Notes under the pieces: model-generated | What the model was told of the DNA's origin: nothing | Databases searched by the model: none | Seen by the model: only the letters and a program-made list of their open reading frames with translations | Source: Bordetella genomosp. 4 | Lineage (GTDB): Bacteria > Pseudomonadota > Gammaproteobacteria > Burkholderiales > Burkholderiaceae_B | Assembly: GCF_002261185.1 (NCBI RefSeq) | Contig: NZ_NEVQ01000013.1 | Location: forward strand, 1-64,000 | Reading direction: 5' to 3' | DNA: 64,000 nt | Made by a program: the position numbers and the translations under genes | Part shown: piece after piece, positions 12,652 to 18,255 of the stretch | How positions within the stretch are numbered: position 1 is the stretch's first letter | Layout of the letters: every line of letters starts with the position of its first letter

Positions 12652-14883
12652 TTACGGTCCGATTGCCTCGGCTCGACGTTTAACCAAATCTAGCCCTCGC
12701 CTGACCTCCGCTGAGTCGAACGGCACCCGGCGCAACCTCAGCCCGGTAGCATCGAATATCGCATTGGCGATTGCCGCGGCACTCGGTACTGACCCAGACT
12801 CCCCAGCCCCCAATGGAGGTTGGTCCTGGGTCGGCATGATCAAGATATCGATATCCGGAATATCCCCGAATCTGATGATAGGATACCCACCCCATTCACG
12901 CGATACGACGCCAGCATCGTCAAATGCCACGCGCTCCATTAGCGCTCGGCTGACCGACTGGATCACATTGCCGTGGATCTGATGCCGCACACCCGCCGGG
13001 TTGATCACCAAACCACAGTCGTAGCCTATCCATACTTTCAGTACGCGCACGGTAGCGCGTTCTAGGTCTACTTCGACATCGCAAACCCAGGCACAGTAAG
13101 CCGACCCTACGCCAGGAAAGGTGCCATGTACGTATTGATGCTGGGCAAACCCACGTCCCCTGCGTATGTGCGGGCGTTGCGGATCCGCATGTAAACGGGG
13201 GGACGGTCCTGTCTGCCAGCCCGCACGCTCGGCCAGTGCAATACTCAGCGCACGAGCTCGCGGGTCCTCCATGAAGCGCAGGCGGAATGCGACAGCATCC
13301 TCGCCATGCTGATGCGCCAGTTCGTCAATGAACGATTCATGGCTAAAGACGTTCGGCAATGCGGATACGCCGCGCATCCAGGCGGCCCGTACGATCGGTG
13401 CCATATCCTGCACAGCAATGCGTACATCGCTGCATCGGTACTGCGGCACGGCAGTGCGATCGCCTTTGTGCTCGACGATGGGGTCTGGGGCAATCGTGCC
13501 TGTTTGCATCAACGCGAGAACGGGCGCGTTATTCGACGGGTAGCGATTGACGAACTCATACGCCAATGTGTCGGGGCCGGTGACCGCGCCTCGTACATCC
13601 ATGATCTGAGTGGTGCCCTTGGGTTCCCAGCTATGCTCTTCCTCCCTCATGAGCTGCAGACGGACGGGGGCGCCTACTTCGCGCGAGATCAGGGCGGCTT
13701 CGGCGGCGGCGTCGTCAGCGCAGTTGCGGCCATAGCAGCCCGAGGCTTCCATTCTCACGATGCGTACGGCCGAGTCGGGCAGATCCAGCAATGCCATGAT
13801 GTCGGCGTGCAGAAAATGCGGATTCTGCGATCCGCTCCATACGGTAATGGCACCGTCCCGATAATCCGCTACCGCACAGGATGGACCGATGGATGCGTGC
13901 ATCTGGTAGGGCCATACGTACGTCGCGGAATGCGTGTCCGTGCGAGCCGACAGCGAGTCGGTGGCGTTTCCGTCTTCACGCAGTACCCGTTCTTTACTCG
14001 GGTTGGCACGCACCGCTGCCTCGGGATCGTTCAGATCGGGCAAGGCTGGCGGCATTGCCCATTGCACTTTCAATTGCCGGGCGGCACGGATGGCATGTTC
14101 CTCCCGGCGTGTGACGACAGCGACGAAATCGCCCTTGACCACGACCGCTACTATGCCCGGAATATCCAATACCGACTCGCGATCGACGGCAATCAATGAC
14201 TGTCCAATCATGGCGCCACTATCACGCCCGGGATAAGGCGGGCGGACCATGCGTGCATGCAGCATGCCGGGTAACCGCAAGTCATGAACGAAGATCAACT
14301 CGCCTTTGATTTTGGCGGGAATATCCACGCGTGCGACGCTACGTCCCACGATGCGATATTGGTCGGCAGGTTTGAGATCGACTTTCGCGTCGATGTCGAT
14401 ATCAAAGTGTTCGCCACGCGCAAGACTGCCGTAGTCTGTCGTTTGTTCGCCCGGGCCCGTGATGATTCCGTCTGCCACGGTGAGCGTATCGGCATCGCAA
14501 GACCATTGCTGCGCGGCGCGTTGCAAGAGGGTTTTTCGTACCTGCGCCGCAGCTCGGCGCAGGGGCACGGCAGCGCTCTGAATCGATGCGCTGGCCGTGG
14601 TGGGACCCTGGTCCGGTGTGCGGTCCGTATCGCCCAGCACCATGCGTACGCGGTGCATGGGGACGTCCATTTCTTCGGCCACGATCTGGGTGAACGCGGT
14701 ACGTACTCCCGTGCCCAGGTCTACGTGGCCATTGCACGCGATGATGTCGCCTTCAGGTGTGATCTCGATGAAGGTATTGACGCGGGATTTGGAGACGCGG
14801 TTCACCGCGTGGCGAGCTGGAGGCTCTCCTTGCGCGTCAAGCCGTTCGCGCGATACGGGCTGCCGATCTTGCACGAGTCTCAT
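12652..14883 (-). CDS. Molybdenum hydroxylase B, catalytic Moco subunit (NicB/IorB type)
   Basis: A 743-residue molybdopterin-binding subunit of the isoquinoline 1-oxidoreductase/nicotinate dehydrogenase branch. The N-terminal block FIEITPEGDIIACNGHVDLGTGVRTAFTQIV is this branch's first cofactor contact. A hammerhead domain starts about residue 190 (LPGMLHARMVRPPYPG). GCYGRNCADDAAAEA replaces the GGGFG loop. RAAWMRGVSALPN is the substrate-loop equivalent, and GAGESG at about 692-697 supplies the catalytic Glu695. It overlaps the cytochrome chain by 4 bp (ATGA) and follows it in the operon. With the 2Fe-2S protein and the cytochrome chain it should hydroxylate an N-heteroaromatic ring with electrons leaving through haem c; no FAD subunit is encoded beside it. 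The substrate is unknown. Confidence 0.9.
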   Translation of the reverse strand: MRLVQDRQPVSRERLDAQGEPPARHAVNRVSKSRVNTFIEITPEGDIIACNGHVDLGTGVRTAFTQIVAEEMDVPMHRVRMVLGDTDRTPDQGPTTASASIQSAAVPLRRAAAQVRKTLLQRAAQQWSCDADTLTVADGIITGPGEQTTDYGSLARGEHFDIDIDAKVDLKPADQYRIVGRSVARVDIPAKIKGELIFVHDLRLPGMLHARMVRPPYPGRDSGAMIGQSLIAVDRESVLDIPGIVAVVVKGDFVAVVTRREEHAIRAARQLKVQWAMPPALPDLNDPEAAVRANPSKERVLREDGNATDSLSARTDTHSATYVWPYQMHASIGPSCAVADYRDGAITVWSGSQNPHFLHADIMALLDLPDSAVRIVRMEASGCYGRNCADDAAAEAALISREVGAPVRLQLMREEEHSWEPKGTTQIMDVRGAVTGPDTLAYEFVNRYPSNNAPVLALMQTGTIAPDPIVEHKGDRTAVPQYRCSDVRIAVQDMAPIVRAAWMRGVSALPNVFSHESFIDELAHQHGEDAVAFRLRFMEDPRARALSIALAERAGWQTGPSPRLHADPQRPHIRRGRGFAQHQYVHGTFPGVGSAYCAWVCDVEVDLERATVRVLKVWIGYDCGLVINPAGVRHQIHGNVIQSVSRALMERVAFDDAGVVSREWGGYPIIRFGDIPDIDILIMPTQDQPPLGAGESGSVPSAAAIANAIFDATGLRLRRVPFDSAEVRRGLDLVKRRAEAIGP

Positions 14884-17784: not shown

Positions 17785-18255
17785 TTAGTTTTCCCCCGCC
17801 AGGCGGCGCGCGGCCAACTGCACGGCCTCAATGATTTCCCGGTGAGTGCCGCAGCGACAGAGGTTGTAGCGCAATGCGTCTTCTATCTCTGATTGGCTAG
17901 GACGGGGATTGCGGCTGAGCAGTGCGTGTGCGGAAATGATCATGCCATTGACGCAGTAGCCGCATTGCGCCGCTTGTGCGTCAATGAAAGCCTGTTGTAC
18001 GACGCTGAGTTCGTCTGGTGTAGACAGGCCTTCCAGTGTCGTGACAGCACGGCCCGATGCGGCTTTGACTGGCACCACACAGGACCGCGCGGGCGCGCCA
18101 TTGATGAGAACGGTGCAAGTGCCGCATTCACCCAGGCCACAGCCATACTTGGGGCCATTCAGCTCCAGATCGTTGCGCAACACATAGAGCAGCGGCGTGT
18201 CGGCCTCCACGTCCACGCGCACTGCCGTGTTATTCACATTCAAATCAAACTGCAT
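17785..18255 (-). CDS. Molybdenum hydroxylase B, 2Fe-2S subunit (NicA/IorA type)
   Basis: A 156-residue protein, the length of NicA. Cluster motifs are GCGLGECGTCTVLINGAPARSC (about residues 39-60) and QCGYCVNGMIIS with NLCRCGTHREI. CGYCxNGM and CRCGTH are the forms seen in enzymes that hand electrons to cytochromes rather than to a FAD subunit, which agrees with the haem chain encoded directly downstream. The start MQFDLNVNN was chosen because it fits the family N-terminus; the open frame runs 49 residues further upstream but overlaps the Bug gene. It is first in a three-gene operon with a 1-bp gap to the cytochrome chain. It could be called nicA-like, but the other nicotinate genes (nicC, nicX, nicD, nicE) are not in the window. 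Confidence 0.92.
   Translation of the reverse strand: MQFDLNVNNTAVRVDVEADTPLLYVLRNDLELNGPKYGCGLGECGTCTVLINGAPARSCVVPVKAASGRAVTTLEGLSTPDELSVVQQAFIDAQAAQCGYCVNGMIISAHALLSRNPRPSQSEIEDALRYNLCRCGTHREIIEAVQLAARRLAGEN

Follow-up and report, generated by a model that had tools for sequence, protein, structure and literature searches.

Nicotinate hydroxylase of the tripartite kind (NicA, NicB1 and NicB2) is described for Burkholderia gladioli and Bordetella in the available passages of a 2023 paper (PMC10269826), and the gene names nicB1 and nicB2 are used in those of a Delftia genome paper (PMC4572682). The enzyme is composed of a small Fe-S subunit, a separate molybdenum cofactor (Moco) subunit and a separate haem chain. 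The operon examined here has the same composition. It lies at positions 12652 to 18255, reverse strand, of a stretch of 64,000 nucleotides from Bordetella genomosp. 4 (contig NZ_NEVQ01000013.1, positions 1 to 64,000), which is called the window below, and it encodes a paralogous NicB2-type three-subunit molybdenum (Mo) hydroxylase. The split into separate chains, which an initial annotation of this DNA had set against the one-chain enzyme of Pseudomonas putida, is not new, to go by those passages. Compared with the described NicA/NicB1/NicB2, the window set forms one operon, has another neighbourhood and takes its active subunit from another branch. It is a real, conserved variant of the known tripartite hydroxylase, and a role for the dead Moco domain of NicB2 or an exchange of its partner was not found described in the literature passages: those of PMC10269826, PMC4572682, PMC10142695, PMC6365646 and PMC3623810 mention neither, and an earlier notice in a Bordetella nic or P. 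putida paper is possible. Our preferred explanation, to which we give an even chance, is that in this three-subunit Mo hydroxylase of NicB2 type the dead domain serves as a dock for a soluble NicA-NicB1 pair, of which the active subunit has been exchanged.

Another related layout is the nicotinate dehydrogenase NicAB of P. putida, whose NicB we take to be one fused Moco-triheme chain. Our comparison set, in which P. putida was not represented, contained nine different fused chains with this layout (1139-1347 aa, three CxxCH, GxGES), and it is to these that the haem part of NicB2 is most closely related. In the fused type the Moco part is complete and carries GxGES, whereas NicB2 has neither, and the window chain, in which the Moco part is incomplete, is not a fused NicB. 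The membrane-bound aldehyde dehydrogenase of Gluconobacter oxydans (PDB 8gy3) has a 444-residue cytochrome chain, which matches residues 538-970 of the NicB2 open reading frame (ORF) only and is without a pseudo-Moco extension. For the deoxyribose dehydrogenase of Pseudomonas simiae, the passages seen of PMC6365646 give a possible twin-arginine translocation (Tat) signal on the iorB-like subunit, a proposed membrane-anchored cytochrome and a suspected periplasmic oxidation. As far as these passages go, this IorAB-like enzyme has the layout of Fe-S subunit, Moco subunit and separate cytochrome that is also met at loci L038, L039 and L087, the closest relatives of the window active subunit outside its own type; unlike the P. 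simiae iorB-like subunit, the window active subunit has no Tat signal, and P. simiae proteins were absent from our trees. Finally, the picolinate dehydrogenase PicA of Bordetella and Alcaligenes is written picA1A2A3 in the passages at hand of PMC10142695, that is, with three gene names for a pyridine-carboxylate dehydrogenase, and is likened to the window by this description only.

Architecture of the operon

The features of the operon are as follows.

17785..18255, reverse strand: NicA-type small subunit with two [2Fe-2S] domains, ATG at 18255 (Pfam Fer2_2 E 2.4e-28, Fer2 E 7.8e-8)
14880..17783, reverse strand: NicB2-type chain, composed of a pseudo-Moco domain, a possible membrane anchor and three haem c sites
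16287..17732, reverse strand: pseudo-Moco domain, ORF residues 34-515, without the N-terminal cofactor-binding part
17469..17501, reverse strand: poly-Gln tract of eleven CAG codons in a poorly conserved part of the pseudo-Moco domain
16389..16406, reverse strand: SRSTAL in the place of GAGESG, catalytic Glu gone
16158..16214, reverse strand: possible membrane anchor AAWATPLAAAAAGLSATAL between the pseudo-Moco domain and the haems, net charge +3 before and 0 after
16047..16061, reverse strand: haem c site 1, CVVCH
15609..15623, reverse strand: haem c site 2, CGACH
15189..15203, reverse strand: haem c site 3, CAACH
12652..14883, reverse strand: active Moco subunit in the NicB1 position, phylogenetically near Moco subunits that bear Tat signals, itself without one
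12793..12810, reverse strand: GAGESG motif of the active Moco subunit, including the catalytic Glu

The NicB2 ORF opens at TTG 17831 and ends at 14880, its likely start being ATG 17783; in the numbering of this ORF the three CxxCH sites are residues 591-595, 737-741 and 877-881. The ATG of the active Moco subunit overlaps the NicB2 stop codon. At E<=0.001, Pfam finds only cytochrome families in the NicB2 chain and MoCoBD_2 and MoCoBD_1 in the other chain. With these domains and its GxGE catalytic motif, the latter belongs to the Mo hydroxylase (xanthine dehydrogenase) family, and the complete, separate Moco subunit with GAGESG that had been described from the letters is indeed there. The operon, with a NicB2-type haem chain that carries a pseudo-Moco domain and three CxxCH, falls among the tripartite hydroxylases. 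As to the poly-Gln tract, slippage there would alter the length of the dead domain and leave the reading frame unaffected.

Homology and selection of the pseudo-Moco domain

In BLASTP the NicB2 chain aligns with the Moco subunit of the same operon at 27% identity over 532 columns (E 6e-30). NicB2 residue 36 is aligned with residue 210 of its partner, that is to say, the first ~190 residues are absent, and SRSTAL stands opposite GAGESG. The two statements of the initial annotation on this point, a Moco-family domain shortened at its N-terminus and a triheme chain without the catalytic Glu, are therefore borne out by the alignment. Of the 32 dead-domain rows, 29 have a residue other than Glu at the catalytic position, one has a gap, and two (L031 and L135) have Glu without the GxGES motif; in the 56 other Moco rows of the same alignment Glu is present in all. 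An absolute loss of Glu across the family was thus ruled out by L031 and L135. Moreover, at five motifs that we take to be cofactor and active-site motifs of the Mo hydroxylase family, the 32 rows agree with the NicB1 consensus at a mean identity of 4-13%, whereas the figure for the domain as a whole is 31%. Two of these motifs, the first and the second, fall in the missing N-terminal part, which is partly filled in some dead rows, we think because their ORFs were extended upstream. With the cofactor-binding motifs and the catalytic Glu lost, the NicB2 N-domain does not qualify as a Mo hydroxylase enzyme.

The rest of the domain has been retained. Its best-kept stretches correspond to NicB1 positions 390-409, 530-549 and 690-729 (0.44-0.57 identity), and positions such as W46, G48, Y51, G53, W388 and W391 are invariant across ten aligned NicB2 chains. 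Related chains were compared in 18 pairs, some of which have a member in common, and gave dN/dS of 0.06-0.38 in the dead domain and 0.009-0.15 in the haem part; dS in the dead domain exceeds 1 in 10 of the 18 pairs, and the remaining eight give dN/dS of 0.12-0.38. In dN/dS the dead domain exceeds the haem part by a factor of two to eight (median about three). The dead domain is under purifying selection, which is looser than that on the haem part. At least 505 residues stand in frame ahead of the haem part in 43 of the 45 distinct NicB2 chains, upstream ORF extensions counted. Accordingly, the description of this half as catalytically dead stands, now with five motifs lost and selection retained, and the docking or scaffold role once attached to it is our best reading.

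Ancestry of the haem chain and of the active subunit

Rows that were identical to an earlier row, or shared its last 200 residues, were dropped, after which 45 NicB2-type chains, 9 fused chains, 48 complete Moco subunits, 28 triheme-only subunits and 31 other Moco chains were kept. The triheme tree was made from 65 of 82 segments, the Moco alignment from 88 of 133 rows, the Moco tree from 76 of these 88, and an extended tree from the 76 and six new rows. In the triheme tree the NicB2 haem parts form one clade (87/80) with the fused Moco-triheme chains as sisters (91/95), separate from the standalone triheme subunits. In the Moco tree the pseudo-Moco domains also form one clade (100/100) beside the fused chains, with support of 81/88 and, in a second alignment, of 82/75, although the dead rows are long branches, which makes their exact placement less certain than the placement of the active subunits. 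From this, the haem chain looks to have descended from a fused NicB of the P. putida type that lost its cofactor-binding half. The fused chains with GVGES (L094, L109, L111, L114, L115 and L116), from Paracoccus and other alphaproteobacteria, form a branch of their own (100/100).

The active subunit of the window is placed elsewhere. It groups with the Tat-type subunits of L038, L039 and L087 (100/99), together with the subunit of Achromobacter sp. HZ34 (L084), and this grouping persists without the fast dead rows (SH-like approximate likelihood ratio test, SH-aLRT, 99 in a quick tree) and on inclusion of L170 as a third genome (100/98); letter composition deviates in 19/76 and 22/82 rows of the Moco trees. 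In these trees and in approximately unbiased (AU) tests it falls outside the canonical NicB1 clade. The AU tests, whose topologies were chosen after the first tree was known, rejected all NicB1 as one clade (p 2.5e-4), and they rejected the joining of the window and L084 active subunits to their own dead domains (p 2.4e-5) or to all dead domains (p 0.0056); with L170 added, the joining of active and dead members was again rejected (p 5.0e-4). The active subunit of the window operon is sister neither to the dead domain of that operon nor to canonical NicB1 and is of different ancestry. We read this as an exchange of partner, in which the active subunit would have come from the Tat-type branch, with a direction and timing that we infer.

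Tat signals and the membrane side

By a lax rule, a Tat-like signal is found in 15 of the 16 Moco subunits that adjoin a standalone triheme subunit and in 13 of the 23 assessable among the 31 other Moco chains, with 1/9 for the fused chains, 3/45 for the NicB2 chains and 1/32 for the NicB1-like subunits (of which 22 share their locus with a retained NicB2 row and 10 do not). With the stricter Tat motif alone, the figures are 14/16 for the subunits adjoining a standalone triheme chain, 0/9 for the fused chains and 2/32 for the NicB1-like subunits; of the latter two, L033 has an ORF extended upstream, and in L129 the stretch after the motif is just below the cut (0.96). No Tat-like signal was found in the window NicB1 or in the first 90 residues of the window NicB2 ORF. 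The NicB1 frame has 744 codons and the ORF 743 residues, so that at most one codon precedes the ATG and no signal is hidden upstream. The absence of a twin-arginine signal sets the window active subunit apart from the Tat-exported Mo enzymes of the IorAB and aldehyde dehydrogenase type with a separate triheme subunit. The start of the window NicB1, SRERLDAQGE, is like a worn SRRSFLKGAG of L038, a short likeness that may be due to chance.

A membrane span between the dead domain and the haems is possible, and it is argued only from the position of the stretch, from the asymmetry of charge around it (in NicB2 chains a mean net charge of +3.8 before and -0.1 after) and from the need to export c-type haems. 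Since c-type haems are attached in the periplasm, a span here would place the dead domain in the cytoplasm.

Proposed mechanism

The docking, topology, electron route and substrate class that we infer can be put together as follows. A fused Moco-triheme ancestor of the P. putida NicB kind would have given rise to the haem chain, whose Moco part has been stripped of its cofactor-binding N-terminal half, of the active-site motifs and of the catalytic Glu, with the remaining fold retained. The kept domain would probably be cytoplasmic, followed by a short membrane anchor and by three haems on the other side, and it may dock the soluble NicA-NicB1 pair in place of the Moco domain of the fused ancestor. 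NicB1 would then hydroxylate an N-heteroaromatic or similar substrate, and electrons would pass from NicB1 through the two [2Fe-2S] clusters of NicA to the docked haem chain and on to the respiratory chain. In the window operon the active subunit would have been swapped in from a branch whose other members carry Tat signals; that it carries none is as expected if the dock is cytoplasmic.

A wider version of this explanation is tentative, and we think it possible rather than probable: NicB2 might be a reusable adaptor, composed of a membrane-anchored haem wire and a cytoplasmic dead domain, with which two or more Moco subunits of separate descent, without the Tat signal of their relatives, have been partnered, by which periplasmic-type enzymes would be made cytoplasmic and wired to periplasmic haems. 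If so, there would have to be some route for electrons from cytoplasmic Fe-S clusters across the membrane to the haems. A pseudoenzyme domain would then act as an adaptor in a redox complex, coupling interchangeable catalytic subunits to one haem chain, and the membrane side and electron path of the hydroxylases that degrade vitamin B3 would become directly testable.

Points against the mechanism and alternative explanations

The observations that weigh against the docking mechanism are given here, each beside the alternative to which it is nearest. As to ancestry, the support for grouping the pseudo-Moco domains with the fused chains is unstarred in both alignments, which weakens the fused-chain origin; the AU tests did not reject a tree in which canonical NicB1 is joined to the dead domains (p 0.5), nor one in which the window-type branch including L038, L039 and L087 is joined to them (p 0.277); and the NicA tree resolved nothing beyond the pairing of window and L084 (99/94) and was dropped as evidence on which modules moved. 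The initial annotation had proposed duplication followed by decay of one copy. In that history a fused NicB was duplicated, one copy lost its haems and became NicB1, the other lost its active site and became NicB2, and the window pair is such a pair. That the joining with canonical NicB1 was not rejected fits it, and so does a quick tree without the dead rows, in which canonical NicB1 stands with the fused chains (SH-aLRT 82). Against it, the full trees put canonical NicB1 with six Tat-type Moco rows (L074, L089, L093, L098, L099 and L112; 81/97, 71/96) and not with the fused chains, a single NicB1 clade is rejected, and so is the joining of the window pair, with and without L170. As the dead domain belongs to an old clade beside fused NicB and the active subunit comes from another branch, a duplication and decay history does not, under the model used, fit the window pair and is on the whole unlikely, although it may be the origin of the canonical family.

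With regard to the domain itself, two chains have it shortened: that of Pandoraea anapnoica (L122, 1021-3489), with ~400 residues before the haem part, and that of Caballeronia fortuita (L147, 1201-3543), with ~360. Part of the dead domain is therefore dispensable in those species, and the two chains offer a natural series for mapping a minimal dock. It could be held that the domain is a passive remnant, tolerated baggage on its way out of a chain of which the haems matter; the shortening would agree with this, as would the looser selection relative to the haem part. We consider it improbable, as dN/dS is low in all 18 pairs, 505 residues or more precede the haem part in frame in 43 of 45 chains and residues such as those named above are invariant in the ten aligned chains.

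As to the membrane side, with a cytoplasmic Fe-S donor and periplasmic haems the electron step across the membrane is left unexplained. The possible anchor is also weak. Measured as the best 19-mer Kyte-Doolittle mean in 43 of the 45 NicB2 chains (two being cut by contig ends) and in all nine fused chains, the stretch between dead domain and haems scores 1.13-1.96 (mean 1.58) in NicB2 and 1.43-2.10 in the fused chains. The window has only 1.28, only 19 of 43 NicB2 chains reach 1.6, and 22 of 43 have a more hydrophobic stretch earlier in the chain, while 16 standalone triheme subunits score 1.95-3.41 (mean 2.50) before the first haem. Being not distinctive and below the standalone triheme subunits, hydropathy was dropped as proof of a span, and because of this comparison the docking mechanism is held less firmly. 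The single-chain structure model of NicB2 is poor as well (mean pLDDT 52.6) and was dropped for the prediction of contacts. The weak hydrophobicity of the stretch would suit an enzyme lying wholly on one membrane side, most likely the periplasm, in which that stretch does not cross the membrane and a signal that escapes recognition serves for joint export of the chains. Among solved structures the nearest relative is 8gy3, a membrane-bound dehydrogenase. In a one-sided enzyme the problem of electron crossing would vanish, and three NicB2 chains do pass the lax Tat rule. The Gluconobacter enzyme is presumably periplasmic. Yet neither the window NicB1 nor the beginning of its NicB2 ORF shows a Tat-like signal, and we regard this arrangement as having little probability. 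Still less can be said for the dead domain as an assembly factor, for cofactor insertion or stabilisation of NicB1, outside the electron path and the finished dock: a cofactor-free Moco-fold domain could bind apo-NicB1 or NicA, but its covalent link to the haem acceptor points to a lasting structural place.

Distribution of NicB2-type chains

A profile of the N-domain was built from ten NicB2 chains and searched against 268 genomes of the family to which the window belongs. It gave 65 places in 63 genomes at 346 bits or more; two further matches of 304 and 308 bits (G151 and G153) have the same layout and bring the count to no fewer than 67 places in 65 genomes. The whole chain was inspected at 36 of the 67 places, and 33 of them have the dead domain and three CxxCH in one ORF (the window, 28 of the 30 loci L043-L072, and L084, L170, L172 and L173); the chains of L061 and L065 are cut or incomplete. 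Sequencing error or a local pseudogene was ruled out as the source of the dead domain, as it is in frame and profile matches occur in so many genomes of the family. At L176 (G212) the dead domain (8115-9836, forward strand) and the three-haem stretch (9628-11043, forward strand) are in two overlapping ORFs, which may be a frameshift, a sequencing error or a natural split.

Outside the family, 369 genomes sampled from the class, the window's own included, yielded a NicB2-type chain at a cut of E 1e-55 in one genome besides that of the window (G655), and one is also present in G762, from another family of the order (L175). A second NicA/NicB2/NicB1 set occurs in the genome of the window on another contig (L028), beside genes for a FAD-binding monooxygenase-like protein, an alpha/beta-hydrolase and an isochorismatase. 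It looks like an ordinary nic locus, the nic names being given by resemblance.

Genomic neighbourhood of the window-type operon

A window-type active subunit is paired with a NicB2 chain in three genomes. In L084 and L170 the gene order is NicA-NicB2-NicB1 as in the window, and common to all three are a TctC receptor, an amidase, a class II aldolase, a helix-turn-helix regulator, a zinc-type dehydrogenase and, farther out, CoxG (assigned by Pfam in the window, except CoxG by translation only, by translations in L084 and by Pfam in L170). Because of the shared order and neighbours, the unit seems to have been inherited as an island. L084 and L170 came from searches other than that with the window NicB1, which, among 399 genomes of the order including its own, had matches at E<=1e-200 in 14, with identities beyond its own gene of only 50-58%. 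Three of the neighbours present in L084 and L170 as well are located in the window as follows.

18296..19306, reverse strand: TctC-type substrate-binding protein, upstream of the operon on the same strand (Pfam TctC E 8e-72)
11838..12575, forward strand: class II aldolase (Pfam Aldolase_II E 2.6e-26)
20617..21894, forward strand: amidase (Pfam Amidase E 1.7e-75)

In eight neighbouring ORFs between 9724 and 23853, Pfam identified two TctC proteins, a LysR regulator, an amidase, an isochorismatase, a class II aldolase, a helix-turn-helix regulator and a zinc-type dehydrogenase. This is not the neighbourhood of nicC, nicX, nicD, nicE and nicF, and isochorismatase is the sole gene type in common with the nic locus L028. 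The substrate may be a carboxamide or an N-heteroaromatic acid, which would fit the nearby amidase and isochorismatase genes. Between 9000 and 24000 of the window no RNA family reached its gathering score. A second, different Mo hydroxylase lies at 2955-9296 on the forward strand, with the following genes.

2955-3839, forward strand: CO-dehydrogenase-type FAD subunit (Pfam)
4324-6738, forward strand: Moco subunit of the second Mo hydroxylase (Pfam)
6747-7547, forward strand: CoxG-like protein (by translation)
7572-9296, forward strand: AMP-dependent ligase (Pfam)

At the place in L170 that matches this second hydroxylase, CoxG and a Moco fragment are present. Further TctC-type receptor genes are found in the window at 22714-28311 and 36408-37370, that at 22714-23853 by Pfam and the rest by translation.

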